From the IMG/VR virus record IMGVR_UViG_3300032736_000354, positions 1-55,199 of that record: 55,199 nt of DNA, one strand, 5' to 3'. The position numbers and the translations under genes were made by a program. Positions 15,790 to 33,192 of this stretch are shown one piece after another. The notes under the pieces are model-generated. The model ran no database searches. It saw only the letters and a program-made list of their open reading frames with translations, and had not been told where the DNA came from. This stretch comes from a virus. Each line of letters opens with the position of its first letter. Positions within the stretch are counted from its first letter, which is position 1.

Positions 15790-16614
15790 TTAAACAACTC
15801 TGGTTCCCTTGATACGGTCATTCCAATACTGATCTATCTCTTCCCAAACATACTCTTTAGGATATTCAATTTTACCACCGCCCTTCATCAATACAAAATC
15901 TTCTACAGGAAGAGCAGAAGCGGTAACCCATTCTTGTATAGCTAAATCCAAGAACAAACTTTTACACCTTTTATAAAGATATTTATGAATGATTTTTTTG
16001 GGAATATCTATTTGTCCTTTCTCTAATTTATTCACAACAATCAATCTTTTCTTTGGTTCTAGATAATGTAAACTAGCTCCCCAAAATTCTGCCCCCTCCA
16101 CCTTTAAAATGTATAGTAACGGATACTTGTCATAGTATGGAAGTGTTGGTGTCTCTGCTTTGTATTCAAAAAAGCACAGGTGTCCAGGAAATACACGACG
16201 ACGATTTACATTTTGGTCTTGATTAACTAAAGCACCAATTGAATCATATTTTTCCTGCTCGTTCATACGAGAAGGCTCTGCTTGAATACCAGCACTTAAA
16301 CTTTTAAGTTTTGATTGATACCACCCTAAACTTTTACTTTCTCCTTCAGTTGCTGCTCTTACTTTTTCAAATATAGTTTGATAACTTTTCTTTCCTGCTT
16401 TTATATACCCCTCAGTTTGACTGACTACTTTAGCCAGCTCTGTCATGTCCTTGTATGAGGAGTATCTTTTCACTCCATACTTAGAAGCAAGAGCACGAAT
16501 CTGATCTCTAGTATATTCAGATAAAGAATTTAATTCGTATCCCGTAAGATAAGACCACCTATCAATAGCATTTATAGCACTTTGTTTTGGTTTTAAATTA
16601 TTCTTTGCTGCCAT
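15790..16614 (-). CDS. Virion-associated protein with SAP/Rho-N-like N-terminal domain, 274 aa
   Basis: Residues about 5-65 (NNLKPKQSAINAIDRWSYL, SEYTRDQIRALASKYGVKRY, SSYKDMTELAKVV) form a small helix-extended-helix module that recurs in the 1294-aa protein at 18705. The C-terminal domain (PGHLCFFEYKAETPTLPYYDKYPL, GASLHYLEPKKRL) resembles a family common next to gp4 in T4-like cyanophages. In T4, gene 2 (DNA-end protector) is beside gene 4, so gp2 equivalence is possible but unproven. It begins 2 bases after the gp4 stop with a GGAG site. Confidence 0.6.
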   Translation of the reverse strand: MAAKNNLKPKQSAINAIDRWSYLTGYELNSLSEYTRDQIRALASKYGVKRYSSYKDMTELAKVVSQTEGYIKAGKKSYQTIFEKVRAATEGESKSLGWYQSKLKSLSAGIQAEPSRMNEQEKYDSIGALVNQDQNVNRRRVFPGHLCFFEYKAETPTLPYYDKYPLLYILKVEGAEFWGASLHYLEPKKRLIVVNKLEKGQIDIPKKIIHKYLYKRCKSLFLDLAIQEWVTASALPVEDFVLMKGGGKIEYPKEYVWEEIDQYWNDRIKGTRVV

Positions 16615-17815: not shown

Positions 17816-18529
17816 ATGTCATTACCTAAAGTTGGAATTCCTACTTACGAATTAAATCTACCTTCAACTGGCAAAGCTATTAAGTATAGACCTTTTGTTG
17901 TCAAAGAAGAAAAGGTTTTGTTGTTAGCATTAGAATCTGAAGACGAAAAAGAAATCAAGAACGCTGTCAAAGATCTAATTAAGAATTGTGTTCAGACTAG
18001 AATTAAGGTAGATGATCTACCAAGTTTTGATCTTGAATATATTTTCCTACGTATTAGAGCAGCTTCTGTGAGCGAAGAAGTTAGTATGGTGGTTACTTGT
18101 AAAGACGACAACACCACACAAGCAAGTGTGAATATTAATTTAACTGATGTTGAAATTTTTAAACCAGAAGGACACACCAACAAAATTATGTTGGATGATG
18201 TAACTGGTCTTGTCATGAAGTATCCTGGTATGGATAGGTTTATTGATTCTGAATTTTTAAATAAAGATATTAAAACAGATGAAGTATTTGATTTTATTGC
18301 TACCTCAATAGATCAAATTTTTAATGATGAAGAGGTATGGGACTCGTCAACAACGTCTAAAAAAGAAATGATTACATTTATTGAAGAATTGACTGCTAAA
18401 CAATTTGAATCAATTCAAAATTTCTATGAGACAATGCCACGATTACTTCATAAATTTACAGTAATTAATCCCAACACTGGAGTAGAATCTGAATATATTA
18501 TTGAGGGACTACAGAATTTTTTCGTATAG
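17816..18529 (+). CDS. 26: Baseplate hub assembly protein gp26
   Basis: 237 aa. MSLPKVGIPTYELNLPSTGK, IKYRPFVVKEEKVLLLALES, LIKNCVQTRIKVDDLPSFDLEY and LRIRAASVSEEV form the T4 gp26 (T4_baseplate) pattern. It ends CAG AAT TTT TTC GTA TAG. The heptamer T-TTT-TTC just before the stop is a perfect -1 slippery site; a slip would replace Val-stop by an extension of about 61 residues containing the gp51-like sequence (see 18517). In position and length the 0-frame product then equals a lambda gpG-type tail chaperone. Confidence 0.87.
   Translation: MSLPKVGIPTYELNLPSTGKAIKYRPFVVKEEKVLLLALESEDEKEIKNAVKDLIKNCVQTRIKVDDLPSFDLEYIFLRIRAASVSEEVSMVVTCKDDNTTQASVNINLTDVEIFKPEGHTNKIMLDDVTGLVMKYPGMDRFIDSEFLNKDIKTDEVFDFIATSIDQIFNDEEVWDSSTTSKKEMITFIEELTAKQFESIQNFYETMPRLLHKFTVINPNTGVESEYIIEGLQNFFV
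18517..18523 (+). promoter_or_regulatory. Candidate -1 programmed frameshift site (T TTT TTC)
   Basis: The heptamer matches X XXY YYZ in the gp26 reading frame, two codons before the gp26 stop. The -1 frame is open from 18505 to the TGA at 18706. The fusion would be about 297 aa. No well-spaced ribosome site exists for independent initiation of the downstream frame: GGAGGGG at 18549-18555 is 24 bases from the only ATG. Confidence 0.65.
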
Positions 18530-18708
18530 CACTCTTCCAAAATAGTTTGGAGGGGTATTTCAGAACTAACTTTGCTTTGATGCAGTATCATAAATACTCT
18601 TTGACTGAAGTAGAAAATCTCATTCCGTGGGAGCGAGAAGTGTATGTGTCCTTGTTAATTCAACACCTCAAAGAAGAAGAAGCAAAGAGAGCGGCTGCTA
18701 AGCAATGA
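18523..18708 (+). CDS. 51: gp51-like baseplate hub assembly domain, probably made as a gp26 frameshift extension
   Basis: The -1 frame after the slippery site reads RIALFQNSLEGYFRTNFAL, then MQYHKYSLTEVENLIPWERE and VYVSLLIQHLKEEEAKRAA, ending at TGA 18708. The SLTEVENLIPWEREVYVSLL part resembles cyanophage gp51 and the second half of tail-assembly-chaperone fusions. Coding-like aromatic sequence upstream of the only ATG (18580) argues that translation arrives from gp26 rather than initiating there. A TTG at 18547 is an alternative start. The stop overlaps the ATG of the next gene (ATGA). Confidence 0.65.
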   Translation, partial: RIALFQNSLEGYFRTNFALMQYHKYSLTEVENLIPWEREVYVSLLIQHLKEEEAKRAAAKQ

Positions 18709-21700
18709 TACCACCAGAGGCAATAAAGCCAATAATCAGTAAAGGAGGTAGAGACAGCACTGAACTTGCTGTCGGAACTCTTATTGCTTATCGTGTAGTT
18801 CCACAAACACAAGAAGGAATAGATAAAGCAAAAAAAATAATTGCTAATAGTAAGGAATGGTTGGTGCCATCTACACATCCTGAGTATTATAATGATATTG
18901 ATAGTGATTTGATGGCGGGAAAAGAAACTCCTGGCATTCTAGCAATTCAGAATCACTTAAAAGAATTTTACGGGTTAACTACTCCTTCTGTTGTCAAAAA
19001 ACCTGTTGCCGATACGAAAGTAAAACAACCACCGGCAGCTCCTCCCGATCCAACTCCAACTCCTTCTGCTGGCACACAAGATTTTGTTGATACTAGAGTA
19101 GAAAAACCAGCAACAACAAAAGAAAAAAAGAAGAACAATTTAAAACCAAAACCTTACGCCAAAGATAACATTGATCGTTGGTCTAGGTTAACTGGATACG
19201 AATTAGATTCTCTTTCAGATTACACACGAGATCAACTTCGTGCCCTTGCTTCTAAGTATGGAATTAAAAGATACTCTTCATACAAAGATAAGAATGAACT
19301 TGCTAAAGTTATTCAGAATACTGTAGCATATCAACAGGCAGCTCCAAAAGCAGTGGAGAAAAAAGTTGAGAAAGTTAAGCTCCCCAAACCAGTTGAGCAA
19401 CCCTCCGCTATAAAAATACCACAAGCACATTATATTCAAGGCCAGAGAGGAAGGTGGGAACCTGAATTTGAAAATGACATTGATCATGCTGTTTATTATG
19501 CCGGGAAATCGCCAATACCTAAGGGAGATAAGCAAAGAGAAGTTCTTGCCTGGCTGAAGAGTTTGGGGTTAACCTACGAACAAATACATGATCATCGTGA
19601 AAAAGTATTAGAAAAAATGAGGGACACAATTGCTGTTCCTGGTGTTGAAGAAGAGTATCCATACCTTTATATTGATGCCGTTGATCAAGATTTTGTGATA
19701 GAAGATGATGATGAATTTGATGAAACAGAAGATGACATAGAAGATCTTGATGATCTTTTAAATTTAGTTAGAACAGATGATGATACATCAGAAGAGGAAG
19801 TTGCCGAAAATATTGAAGAAGAAATTTTAGATGCTGCTGGAGAGGATAAAGATGATGAGGAGGAGGGAGATTTTGGATCAGAAGATGATATACCTGATGA
19901 ATTATTACAGGATGAAGTAGATCCAGAACTGTTAGAAAAACTTCTTGTTACAATAAACAAACCAAAGAAAGAATCTAATTACACAAGTAACAAAAAAATC
20001 TTTGATTCTATTGTTGTTAACTTTGGTAGATTACAATCTACTTTAGATACTATCAACAACAACTTAGAGAAACAAAATAGTTTAATCAAAGCTAACATTG
20101 ATACTCAGTTAGCAATCGGTGAGTTGGTAAGTAATCAAACTGATTTACTTGGGGAAAAGTTTGATGCTATACTGAAAGAATTTCAAAAACAATCTGAGCG
20201 AGCAAAAGATCTTGCTGATGAACAAGAAAGAGGATCAGCAGAAGATTCTTTGGAAGGACAGCGAGATGCTGCTGGAGTTTCTGACTTTCAAGATCTAACT
20301 AAGAAACCTTCTGGCAAAAAAAGAGAAAACAAAATTGAGAAGTATTTGAGGGGTAAGTTAACCAGAAAACTATATCGTAAACTACCAAAATCGGTAAGGA
20401 ATGTTAGACAAAAAGTAAGAAAACTTCAGCGGTTGCCTGATAAAGCTAAAGCAAAAGCAGTAAGTAAAATAACTTCTATGCTTCCTACGAAAGGCAAACA
20501 AGCTGTTGGTACTATGAGTAAAATTCGTGGTATGGGTAGCGTTGGTAGGATGGCTGGTCCTGCTAGATATGCCTTCGCTGGGCTTGAGTATGGAGAAAGG
20601 AAAGCAGAGGGGCAGAGTGAACTTCAGGCACAAGCTGGGGTTGGTAGTGGACTTGCTGGGGCAAGTTTAAGTGCTGGTCTGGTCAGTGCTGGAATAGCTT
20701 TATTACCAACTGCCCCAACTGGATGGGGTGCTGTTGCGGCAGGATCATTAATTTTACTTGGGTCTGCACTTGGGGGGAGTATAGCTAGCGGAGCAGCTGA
20801 TAGAGCAACTGGAGCAGATAAAGTTACTGGAGCACACGAAACTGGTACTGGTCTCACTAAACCAGGCACAGCATTACTTCACGGCACCGAAGCAGTTATT
20901 AATCCAAATGCTATGTCGCCAATGAGTAGTGTTGGTGGTCTAATGATCGCCGCTACTACCGGATACATCAATTCTGCTGGCGCTGTTGCTGCTCCTATTG
21001 CCCCTGTATTGAAAGGAATTTCTGCTCAAATGGCGAAGCAATATGATGTTCCTTCCACATTAACTCAGACCAATGTTGGTGGTAGCTTACCTAATATATC
21101 TGGAGAATTGAAAAAAGTAAAAGAAAAAAGAAAGCAAACGCCAGGAGAAGAACTTTCTGGTATGGAAAAGGATCTTCTGGAGACACAAGATCCACAATCA
21201 TTTGCTGATAAACTGCTGAAAATGCTTGACCCAGAAGGAAAGTTCCAACAATTATTGCAGCAAATAAACCACCAACCTCCCGAAGGTGATCCTACATTAA
21301 CTGAAGGTGGGTATGCTACATTTGGTGAAACTGGTAGTGGTTCTAACGCTAAAGGTTGGGTGCATGGACATTTTCAAAATCCTACTAGCGAAGCAGAACT
21401 GCTGAGAGATACTTTTCCTTTTGTCAAAAAGTTATTAGAACAAGGTTCTGAAGTAGTAATTACTGGTGGAGTTGATAGACCATTGAATAAAGATATGGAT
21501 GATGCTACTATAAAAGATATAATTTCTAAAGGAATAGGTACTCACTCAAATAGAACAAAGGGATATTATGCCGTAGATGTTTCTGTTAAAAAAGGAACAA
21601 AAGTTCCTTTTGCTCTGGAGGATGTTCGGGATGCTGGTGGTAGAGAAGGTGTCAGAGGAAAGATACCTGGAACAAACACTTTTATTGGTCATTTAACTGG

Positions 21701-22589
21701 AGATTCTAAATCTGGTGGACCAGAAAGTCGTCCAACAAAATCCACTGGAGATTTTGATGTCATTATTCCTTTGGACCATGTTAAACCAGGCAATGAAAAT
21801 AAAATACCAGATAAAAAAGGAGGAAACACTTTTAAAAATGCTAGTGCCACAGGTGCTGCTGGTAGAGAAAGAGATCATCAAGATAAAGCAGCAGCTAAAG
21901 TCAAAGCAAAATTAGAAGCGAAAGGTCTTCGTGTTAAAGTTATTACTCCAGAAGATTTTGGAAACTACGAAGATTATGATAATTATATTACAACACAGGC
22001 TTCAAAAAATGTTAGGATAGTTCCTTTACATTTTGATGCTGCTGTTGGTCAAGGAGGAACTGGATTCTTAACAAGAACTAAGAAGGGTGATTCTGGAGAC
22101 GCTGCTCTAGCTAAACCTATACAACAAAAACTATCATCTTTTCAAAAAGCAAACCCTTCTTTAGGAAATTTGGGACCAACCGATACAGTAAGTAATGCCA
22201 CTATTAATAGAGCATCTGCTTCGCCAGCAGCATTAGTTGAGATGGGATCAATGGTTGCTTGGGAAAAACAACATGGATCTAATTTTACTAGCACAAATAA
22301 ATTTGATGAACTTGCTACGGGAATAGCTGAAGGAGTATATCAGGGGGGTGGTTTTGATAATAAAATTAAACCACCCACACAACAACCTAGATTCCAATCC
22401 CTGCAAGGAAAAGATGGCAATGATGATACCAAATATCTGATTGTCAATCAGCAAGCAAAACCACAAATTACAGGACAAGGATCACAAAATGCTCCTTCAT
22501 TTGTTTCTATGGGAGATGGTAGATGGAGAACCCAGAATGAATTGTCAACAACAATGAGAAATCTTTATTTACAAAAACTTGGACAATAA
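18705..22589 (+). CDS. Tape-measure-like virion protein with C-terminal amidase domain, 1294 aa
   Basis: Modules in order: an N-terminal domain (1-90); a Pro-rich linker; a SAP/Rho-N-like module (about 143-205) shared with the 274-aa protein at 15790; an Asp/Glu-rich stretch (about 330-410); coiled coil (about 430-510); a basic region; a Gly/Ala-rich hydrophobic region (about 640-700); and LLHGTEAVINPN, of the HGxExVIP type common in tape measures. A domain near 883-1000 (GWVHGHFQ...THSNRTKGYYAVDV) is peptidase-like but unassigned. An amidase_3-like domain (about 1050-1240) has RERDHQ, VPLHFDA, GTGFLTR and ALVEMGS. It directly follows gp26/gp51, where tape-measure genes lie. Likely a tail protein that digests peptidoglycan at infection. 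Confidence 0.65.
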   Translation: MIPPEAIKPIISKGGRDSTELAVGTLIAYRVVPQTQEGIDKAKKIIANSKEWLVPSTHPEYYNDIDSDLMAGKETPGILAIQNHLKEFYGLTTPSVVKKPVADTKVKQPPAAPPDPTPTPSAGTQDFVDTRVEKPATTKEKKKNNLKPKPYAKDNIDRWSRLTGYELDSLSDYTRDQLRALASKYGIKRYSSYKDKNELAKVIQNTVAYQQAAPKAVEKKVEKVKLPKPVEQPSAIKIPQAHYIQGQRGRWEPEFENDIDHAVYYAGKSPIPKGDKQREVLAWLKSLGLTYEQIHDHREKVLEKMRDTIAVPGVEEEYPYLYIDAVDQDFVIEDDDEFDETEDDIEDLDDLLNLVRTDDDTSEEEVAENIEEEILDAAGEDKDDEEEGDFGSEDDIPDELLQDEVDPELLEKLLVTINKPKKESNYTSNKKIFDSIVVNFGRLQSTLDTINNNLEKQNSLIKANIDTQLAIGELVSNQTDLLGEKFDAILKEFQKQSERAKDLADEQERGSAEDSLEGQRDAAGVSDFQDLTKKPSGKKRENKIEKYLRGKLTRKLYRKLPKSVRNVRQKVRKLQRLPDKAKAKAVSKITSMLPTKGKQAVGTMSKIRGMGSVGRMAGPARYAFAGLEYGERKAEGQSELQAQAGVGSGLAGASLSAGLVSAGIALLPTAPTGWGAVAAGSLILLGSALGGSIASGAADRATGADKVTGAHETGTGLTKPGTALLHGTEAVINPNAMSPMSSVGGLMIAATTGYINSAGAVAAPIAPVLKGISAQMAKQYDVPSTLTQTNVGGSLPNISGELKKVKEKRKQTPGEELSGMEKDLLETQDPQSFADKLLKMLDPEGKFQQLLQQINHQPPEGDPTLTEGGYATFGETGSGSNAKGWVHGHFQNPTSEAELLRDTFPFVKKLLEQGSEVVITGGVDRPLNKDMDDATIKDIISKGIGTHSNRTKGYYAVDVSVKKGTKVPFALEDVRDAGGREGVRGKIPGTNTFIGHLTGDSKSGGPESRPTKSTGDFDVIIPLDHVKPGNENKIPDKKGGNTFKNASATGAAGRERDHQDKAAAKVKAKLEAKGLRVKVITPEDFGNYEDYDNYITTQASKNVRIVPLHFDAAVGQGGTGFLTRTKKGDSGDAALAKPIQQKLSSFQKANPSLGNLGPTDTVSNATINRASASPAALVEMGSMVAWEKQHGSNFTSTNKFDELATGIAEGVYQGGGFDNKIKPPTQQPRFQSLQGKDGNDDTKYLIVNQQAKPQITGQGSQNAPSFVSMGDGRWRTQNELSTTMRNLYLQKLGQ

Positions 22590-22613: not shown

Positions 22614-25217
22614 ATGTCGGCGGGAACTCAAGGATTTACTGATACCAGACAAGACACGAATCATATCGGTAGTGTCATAAGTAGAATTCTTGAAGCAAGA
22701 CAACTTGCCGAAGATGAAAGAAAGTATGCCGAAGCACAGGCAGATAAGTATCAAACTTCATTAGAAGAAGCGGGAGTAAAAAGAGGAGATTTCTTTAAGA
22801 AAGCATTACGCTGGAAGTTTGGTGGTGAGTTTAAACAAAAAAAACTCTCTCAGTTAAACACTTGGAAAAAGAGAGGTGATTTATTAAAGAGTGCTGCCAC
22901 TGGAAAATCTGGTAGAAATAAACTGAATAAGATTGAAAGATCTCAAGCACTCTTTGATATGTTTAAGGCAAGTGACAAGCCAAAAACATTCCGAGATAAA
23001 TTTAAACCGCTGTATGAAGGATTTGTTGATGATCCTATGATGAGACCGACAAAACCAAAGAGTCATATAGTAAAGCCAGGAACTGCCAAGAAAATACAGA
23101 AGGCACTAACATCAAGGAGTAATAAGAGAGTCAGTAAAGAAGACATTTTAGATTCTATTTCTAGTATTACAGATGCAATTGAAAAAATTGCTGAATCAAT
23201 ATCAGAAAAAAATAAAATTGTTTCTGATCAAATGATACATTCCTCTGTTCTCCAGGGAATGATTCATACTCAATTAAAAACCAATGGAGATTCATTGGAG
23301 GACAAACTACAAAAAATTGTTGATGCTATCTCTAATCAAACTCAGTACAAAAAAGAGGCTGTAGATAAAGCAGAAAGTAAAGATGCCGAGAATAAATTAG
23401 AAGCACAAAAAGATGCTGCTGGTGTAGTTAATTTTGATGATCTAACTACGAAGGAAGATGAAAGTAAAGCACCGGAAAGACCTACAGGGGGATACCCAGA
23501 GCTTTCCCAGATGGCACATGCCGGAATGGATGTATCTGGTGTGGAGAGTAAAACTCCTCCTATGTACATGCCACCACAAGCAGAACAAGGAGCAATATTT
23601 TCTGGACCTGATAGTGGATATCTTGTAGAACTTCATGGTAAAGAAAAGGTTGTTCCATTAGATAATAACTACACACAAGGAGAACCAAGTGCTGTTGATG
23701 GTAAGGTAAGACCAAAACCAACTGAGCCTATTGCCAAACCAAAATCTATGCCCTCAAACAATATCCAAAAGTTTGAGATGGGAACTAATAAATCTCCTAT
23801 AAGTTCTTCGCCAATCACATCTAAGTTTGGTTTCAATACAGCAAGAAATCAAATGGGTATTGCTGGTGGCGGAACTACACAGCAATCTAAGATGACACAA
23901 TCAATGGTTGATGTGATGTCATTACCAATGATGGCTGCTGGTGGTACTATTCTTGCCGCCACAACCAAATACATGCAAAGTTTGGGAGGAGAAGGTGCTA
24001 ATATATCTCCAGAAATTCAACGAGTATCGAGACCAATAGCAGAAACTTTTGGTTTGCCTTCATCAATTGTTAACAAAGCTAAGCAAGGTTCTACTAGCAA
24101 GCCTTCTGGTGTAGGGAAACCTGACGAGGAAGGTGGCGAACCTAGTAAAAATATATTTGCTAAATTGATGGATGGTTTTGGTGCTATGCTTGATAAAATG
24201 AAAGATAGTATTAATACTACACCTCCCCCTAGTCCCACAGGAACAGCTCAACCAGCTGATATAAGTGGAAACGAAAAAGAATTGGTGAAGAGATTAATGA
24301 TAGCGGAAGCTGGTGGAGAGGGAACAGAAGGAATGGCAATGGTGGGTAGATCTGTACTGAATAGAGCAGGATTAGTTCAATCTGGTAAACTTGGTGCTGG
24401 TCAATTCAATGCTGAAAGCGGTAGTGTTACTGATATTATTCAAGCACCATTACAGTATACTCCATACGCACAGGGAAAATTAGATAGACCTTTGAGTGCT
24501 GAAGAAAATGCCAGAGCGGAAGCAGCATATCAATTAATGATGAATGATCCTGAGTTTAGAAAAGCAATCAAAACGAAATTTAATTTATCTGAATCCGACG
24601 TTAAAAAAGCTGCTGCGGCAACTGGATTTAGAAACTATGACGCAGGAGCTGATGTTGACAAATCTCAGCAAGTGAATGAATTTGTTGCGGGAAGACATAC
24701 ATTTAATACAGCAGGAAATGCTGGATTGATAACACCATATTCAACAGCGACAGTAGCTCAACCAACTCCATCCCCAACTCAATCTCCAACTGCTCAATTA
24801 GGACAGGCAATCACTAACAACTATGGTCTTGGAGTAGGAAAAGAAAGAACATTTACTGTTCCGGGTTATGGGGAAGTTACCGCACATAAAACAACTGTTG
24901 GTTTTGATTTCTTTAAAGATGGACGAAGACTTGATGTTTCCCCTTCAAACCCACAAGGCAAAACAATCGTTGATTACTTTAAATCAACTAATGGTGGTCA
25001 AACTATCAGTCCTCCCGAAGAAACAAGAGTAGGTTCACTATCACCTGGCAACAAGTCTGAATCTGGTAACATAGCTATGTTAAATATTGGTGGTGGTGGA
25101 TCACAAACTTCTACTGCTGGATCATCACCACAACCAACTGGTGAAGACGGCACAGAGTCAGGAAGAAATCCGACACAAAATTTTTATTCTAATTCATTCT
25201 CTATAGGTGTTGGATAA
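22614..25217 (+). CDS. Tape-measure-like virion protein with SleB-type hydrolase domain, 867 aa
   Basis: Starts SAGTQGFTDTR, almost the same as an internal segment of the previous protein (SAGTQDFVDTR). A basic helical region, a coiled coil (about 170-260), a DAAGVVNFDDLT motif also present in the 1294-aa protein (DAAGVSDFQDLT), YLVELHGKEKVVPLD (tape-measure-like) and a hydrophobic MAAGGTILAATTKYM segment follow. Residues about 550-690 form a cell-wall hydrolase (Hydrolase_2/SleB-like) domain: EKELVKRLMIAEAGGEGTEG, GRSVLNRAG and the LQYTPYAQG region, with Glu in AEAGGEG as candidate catalytic acid. Paralogous to its neighbour but with a different muralytic domain. Confidence 0.65.
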   Translation: MSAGTQGFTDTRQDTNHIGSVISRILEARQLAEDERKYAEAQADKYQTSLEEAGVKRGDFFKKALRWKFGGEFKQKKLSQLNTWKKRGDLLKSAATGKSGRNKLNKIERSQALFDMFKASDKPKTFRDKFKPLYEGFVDDPMMRPTKPKSHIVKPGTAKKIQKALTSRSNKRVSKEDILDSISSITDAIEKIAESISEKNKIVSDQMIHSSVLQGMIHTQLKTNGDSLEDKLQKIVDAISNQTQYKKEAVDKAESKDAENKLEAQKDAAGVVNFDDLTTKEDESKAPERPTGGYPELSQMAHAGMDVSGVESKTPPMYMPPQAEQGAIFSGPDSGYLVELHGKEKVVPLDNNYTQGEPSAVDGKVRPKPTEPIAKPKSMPSNNIQKFEMGTNKSPISSSPITSKFGFNTARNQMGIAGGGTTQQSKMTQSMVDVMSLPMMAAGGTILAATTKYMQSLGGEGANISPEIQRVSRPIAETFGLPSSIVNKAKQGSTSKPSGVGKPDEEGGEPSKNIFAKLMDGFGAMLDKMKDSINTTPPPSPTGTAQPADISGNEKELVKRLMIAEAGGEGTEGMAMVGRSVLNRAGLVQSGKLGAGQFNAESGSVTDIIQAPLQYTPYAQGKLDRPLSAEENARAEAAYQLMMNDPEFRKAIKTKFNLSESDVKKAAAATGFRNYDAGADVDKSQQVNEFVAGRHTFNTAGNAGLITPYSTATVAQPTPSPTQSPTAQLGQAITNNYGLGVGKERTFTVPGYGEVTAHKTTVGFDFFKDGRRLDVSPSNPQGKTIVDYFKSTNGGQTISPPEETRVGSLSPGNKSESGNIAMLNIGGGGSQTSTAGSSPQPTGEDGTESGRNPTQNFYSNSFSIGVG

Positions 25218-30944: not shown

Positions 30945-31033
30945 GGGAGTGTGATGTATGGAGCATCGTGGGTCTTATAAGCCCAAGTGGACCCGATTAG
31001 TCCCGTGTTAGGGTTCGATTCCCTACACTCCCA
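30945..31033 (+). tRNA. tRNA-like gene, anticodon loop CTTATAA (UAU, Ile?) with long variable arm
   Basis: Acceptor GGGAGTG/CACTCCC (7 bp), discriminator A, T-arm TAGGG-TTCGATT-CCCTA, anticodon stem TGGGT/GCCCA with loop CTTATAA, hence anticodon UAU. The 23-base variable region can fold as GGAC...GTCC, making a class II (Leu/Ser/Tyr-type) body of 89 nt. UAU would read Ile AUA, but Ile tRNAs are class I. Identity is therefore uncertain. CCA is not encoded. Confidence 0.6.
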
Positions 31034-31056
31034 TTTGCTATTTCCGAATAGCGAAT

Positions 31057-31128
31057 GCTCGTTTAGCTATCTAGGAAAGCACCGATCTCATAAATCGGCA
31101 TAGGTCGGGGCAGAACCGACAACGAGCA
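31057..31128 (+). tRNA. tRNA-Met (CAU)-like, unusual T-loop
   Basis: Acceptor GCTCGTT/AACGAGC, D-stem GCT/AGC, anticodon stem CCGAT/ATCGG with loop CTCATAA (CAU). T-stem GTCGG/CCGAC carries loop GGCAGAA instead of the usual TTCRANN. Could be elongator Met or, with lysidine, Ile2. Length 72 nt. Confidence 0.75.
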
Positions 31129-31133
31129 CCTTT

Positions 31134-31205
31134 GGGTCATTAACTCAGCAGTAGAGTATCCGACTTTTAATCGGTTAGTCGTTGGTTCAAATCCAACATG
31201 ACCCA
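31134..31205 (+). tRNA. tRNA-Lys (UUU)
   Basis: Acceptor GGGTCAT/ATGACCC, D-stem ACTC/GAGT, anticodon loop CTTTTAA (UUU), T-arm GTTGG-TTCAAAT-CCAAC, discriminator A. The outer pair of the anticodon stem is T-T. Length 72 nt. Confidence 0.85.
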
Positions 31206-31206
31206 C

Positions 31207-31235
31207 TTGACAATCTGGGCAATCCCTGCTATGAT
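31207..31235 (+). promoter_or_regulatory. Sigma70-like promoter inside the tRNA array
   Basis: TTGACA (31207-31212), 17-base spacer, TATGAT (31230-31235), 15 bases before tRNA-Leu(UAA). The -35 box sits in the loop of CCCA/TGGG (31202-31219). Confidence 0.72.
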
Positions 31236-31250
31236 TGTTATATACCAAAC

Positions 31251-31325
31251 GGCGGTGTAGCCCAATTGGCAGTAGGCAAACGACTTAAAATCGTTCAAGT
31301 GTGGGTTCAAATCCCACCACCGCTA
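31251..31325 (+). tRNA. tRNA with Leu (UAA) anticodon but class I body
   Basis: Acceptor GGCGGTG/CACCGCT, D-stem GCC/GGC, anticodon stem AACGA/TCGTT with loop CTTAAAA (UAA). The variable loop is only CAAGT; T-arm GTGGG-TTCAAAT-CCCAC; discriminator A. Bacterial Leu tRNAs normally have a long variable arm, absent here. Length 75 nt. Confidence 0.8.
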
Positions 31326-31327
31326 TT

Positions 31328-31370
31328 AACGGTAAACTATTATAAATAACTATAATTATTGTTTACCGTT
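31328..31370. repeat. 10-bp inverted repeat enclosing a TATAAATA late promoter
   Basis: AACGGTAAAC (31328-31337) and GTTTACCGTT (31361-31370) are perfect complements around a 23-base AT-only-plus-one-C spacer. The spacer contains TATAAATA (31341-31348), an exact T4 late promoter core oriented toward the gene at 31453. A second hairpin TGCTTAA/TTAAGCA (31422-31441) lies just before that gene. Confidence 0.7.
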
Positions 31371-31452
31371 ATGTCAAACCCCAGAAACTACTGCAGATTA
31401 TAGATGATTTAGATTAAAAAATGCTTAAATAGTATTAAGCAAATTGTGTAAC

Positions 31453-31719
31453 ATGAAATACGTTCTTTCTCAATCATACTGTTTTTATATGGGTGAAGTA
31501 GTGAGAATGTATTTTATTCAAGGTATGCCATATACTTTTGACGAACTTCCTGAAATAATTCAAAATCATCCTGAAATACAAATGGAGGCTCTTAGCAACC
31601 GAGATTTTGATGATGAAGATATGTATACTTGGTCAAATTATTTGATTATGGAAGCAGTTCACCCACTTATGTTTGAACTTGACCTAGAAAATCCTGAATT
31701 ACTACCTAAAGATGATTAA
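31453..31719 (+). CDS. Hypothetical acidic protein, 88 aa
   Basis: ATG 31453 was preferred to TTG 31444. Sequence: an N-terminal aromatic segment (QSYCFYMGEVVRMYFI) and an acidic C-terminus (DLENPELLPKDD), with the DDEDMYTWSNYLIMEAVHPLMFELD helix between. No domain recognised. It overlaps the cpeT start by 8 bases, so the two are coupled and probably late-transcribed from the TATAAATA within the inverted repeat. Confidence 0.6.
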   Translation: MKYVLSQSYCFYMGEVVRMYFIQGMPYTFDELPEIIQNHPEIQMEALSNRDFDDEDMYTWSNYLIMEAVHPLMFELDLENPELLPKDD

Positions 31720-32236
31720 TGAATTTTTTAGATTACTTGAAGGAAAATTTGAAAATAAAATTCAAGCTTTTTCTCATCCATCTAGATATGCTTTTATTAG
31801 AATAACTCATATTAATATTGGTAATGGACTTTTTTATGGCGAACAAGCATATAATTATCAACTTCATAAACCGTATCGTCAATTTGTACTACAACCGAAT
31901 CTAGATGGAAATCAAATTAAAATTATTAATTATAAATTAAAAGATCCCACTACATTTGTAAATTTTAAAAACATAGATACATTATCGCTTAATGATGTAG
32001 AATTAAATACTGGTTGTGATATAGTTATGAAACCAGTTGGTGATTCTTTCAAAGGGGGGTTGACCGGATGTGAATGTATGGTAGAATGGAATGGTCGGGA
32101 AACATATCTTCAAAATGAAATTCAATTGACTCCAACACACTATTACGTTATGGATCGTGGATTCTGTGCTAAACATAAGCATCAACTCTGGGGATCTAAA
32201 TATGGTAGATTTGAATTTGTTAGAATGCCACTTTAG
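31712..32236 (+). CDS. cpeT: CpeT/CpcT-like phycobiliprotein lyase
   Basis: 174 aa. Family landmarks in order: F..QAFSHPSRYAFIRITH, LFYGEQAYNYQLHKPYRQFVL (the Q-Y...PYRQ signature), KIINYKLKD, GCDIVMKP, F.GGLTGCECMVEWNGRETYL and the C-terminal MDRGFCAKHKHQLWGSKYGRFEF. CpeT-type lyases attach phycoerythrobilin to phycoerythrin in marine Synechococcus, and cyanophage copies are known. The gene points to a phycobilisome-containing host. Its stop codon lies inside the tRNA-Thr gene (10-base overlap). Confidence 0.88.
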   Translation: MINEFFRLLEGKFENKIQAFSHPSRYAFIRITHINIGNGLFYGEQAYNYQLHKPYRQFVLQPNLDGNQIKIINYKLKDPTTFVNFKNIDTLSLNDVELNTGCDIVMKPVGDSFKGGLTGCECMVEWNGRETYLQNEIQLTPTHYYVMDRGFCAKHKHQLWGSKYGRFEFVRMPL

Positions 32237-32300
32237 CTCAGCTGGATAGAGCAGGGCTTTTGTAAAGCTCAGGTCACCCGTTCAAGTCGGGTAAGTGGCT
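32227..32300 (+). tRNA. tRNA-Thr (UGU)
   Basis: Acceptor GCCACTT/AAGTGGC, D-arm GCTC/GAGC, anticodon stem GGGCT/AGCTC with loop TTTGTAA (UGU), T-arm ACCCG-TTCAAGT-CGGGT, discriminator T. Its first 10 bases encode the last residues and stop of cpeT. Confidence 0.92.
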
Positions 32301-32347
32301 CTTGGTGGTACTCGCTAGGCAGATAGCCTAGAAGGAGACTATCATTC

Positions 32348-32419
32348 CCTCTGGTAGTCTATTGATAAGGACGGGTGGATAACACACATAGAAACTAGGT
32401 TTGATTCCTAGACAGAGGA
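32348..32419 (+). tRNA. Degenerate tRNA-like sequence
   Basis: Acceptor CCTCTG/CAGAGG plus one G-A mismatch, T-arm CTAGG-TTTGATT-CCTAG and D-stem GTCT/GGAC are present. The anticodon arm (around GGTGGATAACACACAT) gives no 5-bp stem with U33. Either a decaying tRNA or one needing editing. Just upstream, CTAGGC-AGATA-GCCTAG (32315-32331) is a perfect hairpin, and GACTATC/GGTAGTC offers a competing fold. Confidence 0.45.
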
Positions 32420-32597
32420 AAATTTAGGTAAGGAAAGTAAAAGGAGAATGGGAACCAGTGACACTTGTGAAACGTATGGGTATACCTCACCTGCCTAATT
32501 GCTATTTGCGCTGGAAAGATAAACCAGAATGCCGTAGCAACAACACCCCTCAAGCCTATCTCGGGACGCCGAATGATGCTCAAACAGAGGGGTCACT
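32420..32597 (+). other. Non-coding spacer in tRNA array
   Basis: About 180 bases between two tRNA-type sequences. Open frames here run through tRNA genes and have no ribosome site or family resemblance. CCCCTC/GAGGGG (about 47 bases across, near 32547-32593) could pair, but no tRNA fold emerges. I see no gene. Confidence 0.4.
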
Positions 32598-32670
32598 GCC
32601 CGAGTACTCCAACGGTAGAGAGAGTGGTCTTAGAAACCATACAGTGGAAGTTCAAATCTTCTCTCGGGCA
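32598..32670 (+). tRNA. tRNA with Leu (UAG) anticodon but class I body
   Basis: Acceptor GCCCGAG/CTCGGGC, D-stem CTC/GAG, anticodon stem GTGGT/ACCAT with loop CTTAGAA (UAG). Short variable loop ACAGT, T-arm GGAAG-TTCAAAT-CTTCT, discriminator A. Like the UAA species it lacks the long variable arm expected for Leu. Confidence 0.8.
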
Positions 32671-32715
32671 TTTCAAATCACAGGATTTGAAATTGAAAAA
32701 CAGAATACATAAAAT

Positions 32716-32758
32716 GGGGAAAAAAATCCCCGCCAAAAAATCTCTAAAAAAGTTGAGG
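32716..32758 (+). repeat. A-tract/GTTGAG repeat, copy 2
   Basis: Second copy of the pattern at 30661-30707: GGGAAAAAAATCCCCGCC, AAAAAATCTC, AAAAAAGTTGAGG. It sits between tRNA-Leu(UAG) and the small gene at 32766. An ATG at 32714 opens a 16-codon basic frame through it; I do not call this a gene. Confidence 0.45.
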
Positions 32759-32765
32759 GCATAAA

Positions 32766-32909
32766 ATGAGCTTACTTTCTAAGAAAGATCACGAAATAGT
32801 CATTGAAGCACTTCAAACCCTAATTCAAACAAAGGAGGAATCTAAAGAAAAATTTGAATATTATAATTTACTTAATTGGGTTAAATTAAAATCCAAAGAA
32901 GTATTTTAA
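32766..32909 (+). CDS. Small helical hypothetical protein, 47 aa
   Basis: ATG-started frame encoding an apparently single amphipathic helix pair (KKDHEIVIEALQTLIQTKEE, SKEKFEYYNLLNWVKLKSKE). It lies between the Leu and Asn tRNA genes, ending 4 bases before tRNA-Asn. Such short helical proteins are common between cyanophage tRNAs; function unknown. Confidence 0.55.
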   Translation: MSLLSKKDHEIVIEALQTLIQTKEESKEKFEYYNLLNWVKLKSKEVF

Positions 32910-32913
32910 TTAT

Positions 32914-32985
32914 TGGGATGTAGCACAACGGCAGTGCGAAGAGCTGTTAACTCTTAGGTTACAGGTTCGAATCCTGTCATCCCAG
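32914..32985 (+). tRNA. tRNA-Asn (GUU)
   Basis: Acceptor TGGGATG/CATCCCA with discriminator G (U1-A72 and G73 are usual for Asn), anticodon loop CTGTTAA (GUU), T-arm ACAGG-TTCGAAT-CCTGT. Length 72 nt. Confidence 0.92.
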
Positions 32986-32988
32986 TTT

Positions 32989-33071
32989 GGGTAGGTGTCC
33001 GAGTGGTTGAAGGAGGGAGACTGTAAATCTCTTGGTTCTGTCCATCGTTGGTTCGAATCCAACCCTGCCCA
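32989..33071 (+). tRNA. tRNA-Tyr (GUA), class II
   Basis: Acceptor GGGTAGG/CCTGCCC, anticodon stem GGAGA/TCTCT with loop CTGTAAA (GUA), long variable arm, T-arm GTTGG-TTCGAAT-CCAAC, discriminator A. A normal bacterial class II Tyr tRNA of 83 nt. Confidence 0.92.
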
Positions 33072-33075
33072 TTTT

Positions 33076-33148
33076 GGAAACATAGCTTAGTTGGTAAAGC
33101 ATTCGACTGATAATCGAAAGACCACTGGTTCAAGTCCAGTTGTTTCCA
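33076..33148 (+). tRNA. tRNA-Ile (GAU)
   Basis: Acceptor GGAAACA/TGTTTCC, D-stem GCTT/AAGC, anticodon stem TTCGA/TCGAA with loop CTGATAA (GAU), T-arm ACTGG-TTCAAGT-CCAGT, discriminator A. Length 73 nt. Confidence 0.93.
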
Positions 33149-33192
33149 TTGTCAATATTGCCAAAAATCAAGCCCCTTCCGTGTGACTTCAA

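Follow-up and report, generated by a model that had tools for sequence, protein, structure and literature searches.

The frameshifted tail assembly chaperones of lambda (gpG/gpGT) and of other phages were reportedly described by Xu, Hendrix and Duda in 2004. The lambda heptamer is GGGAAAG. For T4 the corresponding pair is said to be gp26/gp51, as we gather from the title of the 2022 paper of Vladimirov and coworkers together with the homology found here.

In the passages that concern the T4-like tail assembly chaperones, PMC12846349 and PMC10885494 both cite Vladimirov, Gautam & Davidson 2022 (Virology 566:9). The former attributes to that work the poly-T -1 slippery signals in T4-like TAC-N genes, and the latter cites it for T4-like phages which contain short and long copies in place of a frameshift. 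To judge from these passages a frameshifted chaperone has been described before, at any rate for the T4-like phages as a group. The frameshift passage of PMC12846349 also describes the tail assembly chaperone (TAC) of Vandenendeviridae / Andersonviridae (phage Adele), in which the -1 frame is likewise open in every genome and a conserved T-rich motif is likewise found near the end of TAC-N. That system belongs to another phage lineage and its motif is GTTTTT; a hairpin is not mentioned in that passage.

In public records the locus considered here is labeled as two genes, a 'baseplate hub subunit' and a 'baseplate hub assembly catalyst'. The gp51 proteins of cyanophages and vibriophages are described as being without the first ~200 residues of T4 gp51 (PMC3037559), and the presence of one recoded chaperone gene would explain these missing N-terminal residues. 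We analyzed a virus record of 55,199 bases from a T4-like marine phage; this record is called the window throughout. As judged from sequence comparison, a programmed -1 frameshift at its gp26/gp51 locus very probably yields a short and a long tail assembly chaperone. The present analysis provides a count of the lineages concerned, the constraint at codon level, the copy number in comparison to T4, the exceptions and a hairpin that appears to be specific for one clade.

Reading frames of the gp26/gp51 locus

The following features, all on the + strand, are referred to in the text.

17816..18529, +, gp26 / T4_baseplate family gene (PF12322, phrog_150), putative short tail assembly chaperone (TAC-N), 237 aa
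18517..18523, +, T_TTT_TTC heptamer (slippery site) in the phase of the gp26 codons AAT TTT TTC
18517..18708, +, -1 frame (gp51), putative C-terminal extension of the long chaperone (phrog_634, C-terminal part of phrog_150, alignment to T4 gp51)
18527..18529, +, 0-frame stop TAG of gp26
18531..18556, +, predicted stimulatory hairpin (folding and synonymous shuffles) with an 11-bp stem, 18531-18541 / 18546-18556, and the loop 18542-18545
18580..18582, +, sole ATG in the -1 frame, probably not used
18705..22589, +, downstream gene for a candidate tape measure or hub protein of 1294 aa, its start overlapping the gp51 stop

The 3' end of gp26 reads GAG GGA CTA CAG AAT TTT TTC GTA TAG, so that sequence and phase of the heptamer are as the sequence-only reading had given them. 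That reading had placed the heptamer two codons before the stop; it is indeed close to the stop, with a single codon (GTA) in between, which is a trivial difference. The phase fits a tandem -1 slippage, in which the P-site would re-pair from UUU to UUU and the A-site from UUC to UUU. Also as proposed, the -1 frame is open to 18708; the open stretch begins at 18505 and ends with a TGA at 18706-18708, and the part that follows the slip encodes FFRIALFQNSLEGYFRTNFALMQYHKYSLTEVENLIPWEREVYVSLLIQHLKEEEAKRAAAKQ. The predicted fusion product comprises 297 aa, in comparison to 237 aa for gp26.

Most ribosomes would stop at the TAG at 18527 and release gp26 as the short chaperone. We infer that a minority would slip back by one base on T_TTT_TTC and continue in the -1 frame, giving the 297-aa long form (TAC-NC), and that this slippage would be aided in the clade of the window by the hairpin. 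If the two forms act like lambda gpG and gpGT, the tape measure protein would be coated by the short form and the extension would bring in the subunits of the tail tube. The arrangement resembles the lambda-type chaperones in the predicted -1 slip toward the 3' terminus of a small gene, in the candidate tape measure gene just downstream, and in the predicted combination of a major short and a minor long form. In contrast to lambda the sequences are unrelated or highly diverged, the heptamer is TTTTTTC, and gp26 is larger and contains extra beta-rich parts. The sequence-only reading had regarded gp26/gp51 as the T4-like counterpart of G/GT, and the conservation of the heptamer, the survey of start sites and the homology to T4 gp51 support this view.

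Conservation of the heptamer and of the -1 frame

The alignment of relatives revealed an in-phase TTTTTT[C/T/A] in all 113 distinct junctions (103 TTTTTTC, nine TTTTTTT and one TTTTTTA), and the -1 frame before the ATG is conserved as protein. The cyanophage loci near the window share ancestry, so these junction counts are not independent events and the breadth of the lineages carries the weight. TTTTTTC is found at the same in-phase place in all of the 80 IMG/VR loci fetched with gp26, in S-PM2 and in the window. The heptamer is also kept in distant isolates, namely in Kyanoviridae of other genera, Pelagibacter phage Mosig, Stenotrophomonas phage Ps15 and Vibrio phages R10Z and K566. Methylophilales phage Melnitz and Sinorhizobium phage phiN3 contain the TTTTTTT variant, and Pseudoalteromonas phage XG4 contains TTTTTTA. 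Another set of environmental contigs was fetched with the gp26 of phiN3, and each contig that includes the junction keeps the heptamer. In these contigs the distance from the heptamer to the 0-frame stop is 0, 3, 6, 9 or 24 nt and the -1 frame is open throughout.

Constraint at the codon level was examined in 57 genes dereplicated at 95% nucleotide identity. All 57 genes have TTT as the first Phe codon of the heptamer and 56 of them have TTC as the second one, while TTC accounts for only 28% of the Phe codons elsewhere in these genes (TTT 589, TTC 225). The median codon conservation at conserved residues of the same genes is 0.63. The codon in front of the tandem Phe codons varies (AAT, AGT, TCT, GAT, GGT) and ends with T every time. 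These numbers argue for a synonymous constraint on the heptamer beyond what chance would give.

They also bear on a slippage of the RNA polymerase, which would generate mixed mRNAs on the run of six Ts without any ribosomal slip and would lead to a fusion protein of identical appearance. Six Ts are short for polymerase slippage, the nearly invariant TTC avoids a longer T run, and the constant T before the tandem codons corresponds to the X_XXY_YYZ pattern of tandem tRNA slippage. In the near clade a hairpin is in addition located 7 nt downstream. We therefore consider polymerase slippage extremely unlikely as the source of the long form.

In the 80 IMG/VR loci, S-PM2 and the window the -1 product shows conservation from FFR onward. 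Beyond the hairpin, in the stretch between the 0-frame stop and the ATG, the nucleotide diversity is 0.16/0.16/0.45 for the three -1 codon positions. No stop in the -1 frame was found in this stretch in any of 67 sequences, while nearly all of them contain stops in the other two frames. This pattern points to a -1 frame that is conserved as protein-coding sequence upstream of any ATG.

It could be argued that gp51 is a separate small gene with an ATG (or TTG) of its own, at which ribosomes reinitiate once they have terminated at the gp26 stop, and that the T-run is incidental. Most of the public records fetched annotate gp51 as a CDS of its own, and some lineages contain a TAATG overlap (Sf-FR1 and KVP40-like phages) or another early ATG as a possible separate gp51 start. 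The only ATG of the window, at 18580, lies within the conserved NFALMQ motif, and the ~20 codons upstream of it are conserved as -1 protein, in agreement with the earlier impression that these residues look like coding sequence. That no well-placed ribosome site serves this ATG was borne out as well, for Shine-Dalgarno pairing is absent both there (dG +0.2) and at the in-frame TTGs. Among 68 junctions, 42 are devoid of an ATG over the initial 12 codons of the -1 frame, and a start preceded by a strong Shine-Dalgarno sequence is missing from 66. Together with the synonymous constraint on the heptamer this makes a separate gp51 gene very unlikely in general. The sequence-only reading had named as its counter-case relatives with a strong ribosome site and an ATG for gp51 but no heptamer; nearly all relatives keep the heptamer, and strong-site starts are confined to the two remaining junctions, so that the proposal withstood this check.

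Exceptions are the Vibrio phages K357 and K474, which form one lineage and are without the heptamer (CTT TTC AAG TAA TG and CTT TTT GCG TAA TGA TG). Their gp26-gp51 junction has only a TAATG overlap, which would fit a separate gp51 gene in this lineage. The genome of K357 encodes one PF12322 copy. In S-SCSM1 the heptamer is kept; an apparent insertion of 11 nt in comparison to S-SM2, at the junction located at about 162,270-162,310 of MK867354.2, closes the -1 frame and gp51 is found in the +1 frame. The junctions of the nearest relatives of S-SCSM1 (SynMITS9220M01, S-SM2 and P-TIM68) are normal, and the apparent insertion may be real or an error of sequencing or assembly.

Relation to T4 gp26 and gp51

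The gp26 protein of the window matches PF12322 (T4_baseplate, E 2.2e-68) and phrog_150 ('baseplate hub', E 4.3e-73). The -1 product is assigned to phrog_634 (E 4.9e-28) and matches the C-terminal part of phrog_150 as well (E 2.7e-5), which means that phrog_150 spans both parts. T4 gp26 belongs to PF12322 (E 5.2e-63). T4 gp51 matches PF12322, phrog_150 nearly end to end (13-280) and, at its C-terminus, phrog_634. In the alignment T4 gp26 ends with GLKEFFELL at the position of GLQNFFV in the window, while T4 gp51 extends, with no change of frame, across the part that corresponds to the -1 product. T4 gp51 thus looks like a ready-made in-frame long form that is homologous to the predicted fusion.

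In a six-frame search T4 was found to contain two PF12322 copies, and the 16 other phage genomes contain a single copy each (16/16). Because of this single copy the long form must come from a single locus in the phages other than T4, if it is made at all. The record of the window, a fragment of 55 kb, also contains one copy, and by analogy with the complete relatives the phage from which it derives probably has a single copy too. T4 and the window share the PF12322 family and the same short and long forms; the difference is that T4 contains two separate genes while the window would produce both forms from one locus. The T4 long form appears to be a separate, diverged gene. Reading the locus of the window as one recoded gene brings the T4 branch, with its two genes, under the rule that long-tailed phages generally have two forms of the chaperone.

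A gp26 model was calculated with AlphaFold2 from an alignment of 38 sequences (mean pLDDT 86.5). The most probable of the PDB matches listed (0.82) is 2ob9, the tail assembly chaperone of HK97, a statistically weak match with an E of 0.41 over 69 aligned columns; 3fgx is also among them. The BFVD matches of the model are members of the T4-like 'baseplate hub' family itself, and a PDB sequence search with the gp26 profile gave chance matches only. The fold matches agree with a TAC fold and fall short of a proof.

The predicted downstream hairpin and neighboring genes

A hairpin is predicted 7 nt downstream of the heptamer. Its strength was compared to shuffles in which the -1 protein is fixed and the synonymous codons are redrawn from the codon usage of each phage. 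In the window the hairpin has a z of about -4.2 to -5.0. Near relatives (identity of 55% or more across the last 150 residues) reach a mean z of -3.44 and 97% of them lie below -1.65, in comparison to +0.20 and 3% for the control stretch. In a sliding profile of 34 loci, which are mostly near relatives, z peaks at the position of the hairpin (mean -3.4) and differs little from zero in gp26 and in the greater part of gp51. The signal fades in distant phages, and for most of those with less than about 45% identity z falls in the range of -2.5 to +1.

Covariation is weak according to RNAalifold on the near-clade alignment (-0.24, one pair with a compensatory change). Counting of pairs gives modest support, with 86% of the cells paired versus 45-59% for slid registers and a change from C-G to G-C at the second stem pair in three sequences. 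The case for the hairpin is therefore based on the synonymous-shuffle test and not on covariation. No Rfam family matched at the site.

We had also considered a hairpin common to all of these phages. The first shuffle test applied the codon usage of the window to all phages, which could favor structure in the GC-richer ones. After the shuffles had been redone with the usage of each phage the universal hairpin was dropped for a clade-specific one, and we read the hairpin as a clade-specific stimulator and not as a universal part of the signal.

The frameshift could be real without any stimulation by the hairpin, which would then be a by-product of codon choice or would influence either the stability of the mRNA or the start of the gene that follows. 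The weak signal in distant lineages suggests that frameshifting needs no hairpin there, and the covariation support is small. The peak at the position expected for a stimulator, however, and the high proportion of significant near relatives with the protein sequence held fixed make a hairpin without stimulating function rather unlikely. The balance is slightly in favor of an invariant T6 slippery core that is common to the phages with a single PF12322 copy and combined with a lineage-specific stimulator, the hairpin in the case of the cyanophage clade of the window, by which the ratio of long to short chaperone would be tuned differently in each lineage. The hairpin offers a ready test of what sets this ratio.

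The protein of 1294 aa encoded directly downstream had been described as tape-measure-like. The start of its gene overlaps the gp51 stop; the tape measure label is plausible but unproven. The protein contains a hydrophobic mid-region and a C-terminal Amidase_3 domain (PF01520, E 1.5e-8), and also matches phrog_11440 (unknown function) and phrog_435 (endolysin). A second long gene is located at 22614-25217 (+), with a Hydrolase_2 match below the cut-off, while the Amidase_3 match of 18705-22589 is above it. Both genes have matches to cell-wall hydrolases, and either of them is a candidate for the tape measure gene.

Further downstream a tRNA cluster is found at 30945-33149 (+). Its eight genes according to ARAGORN are Ile-TAT, Lys, Leu-TAA, Thr, Leu-TAG, Asn, Tyr and Ile-GAT; the Ile-TAT gene (30945-31033) was not detected by Rfam at its gathering score.

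The DNA end protector (gp2-like; 15793-16614, -) and the 1294-aa protein have a module of 74 residues in common (65% identity, E 5e-27), which comprises residues 13-86 of the former and 152-225 of the latter. In the 1294-aa protein the module overlaps a weak Rho_N match. It was possibly exchanged between the neighboring genes.
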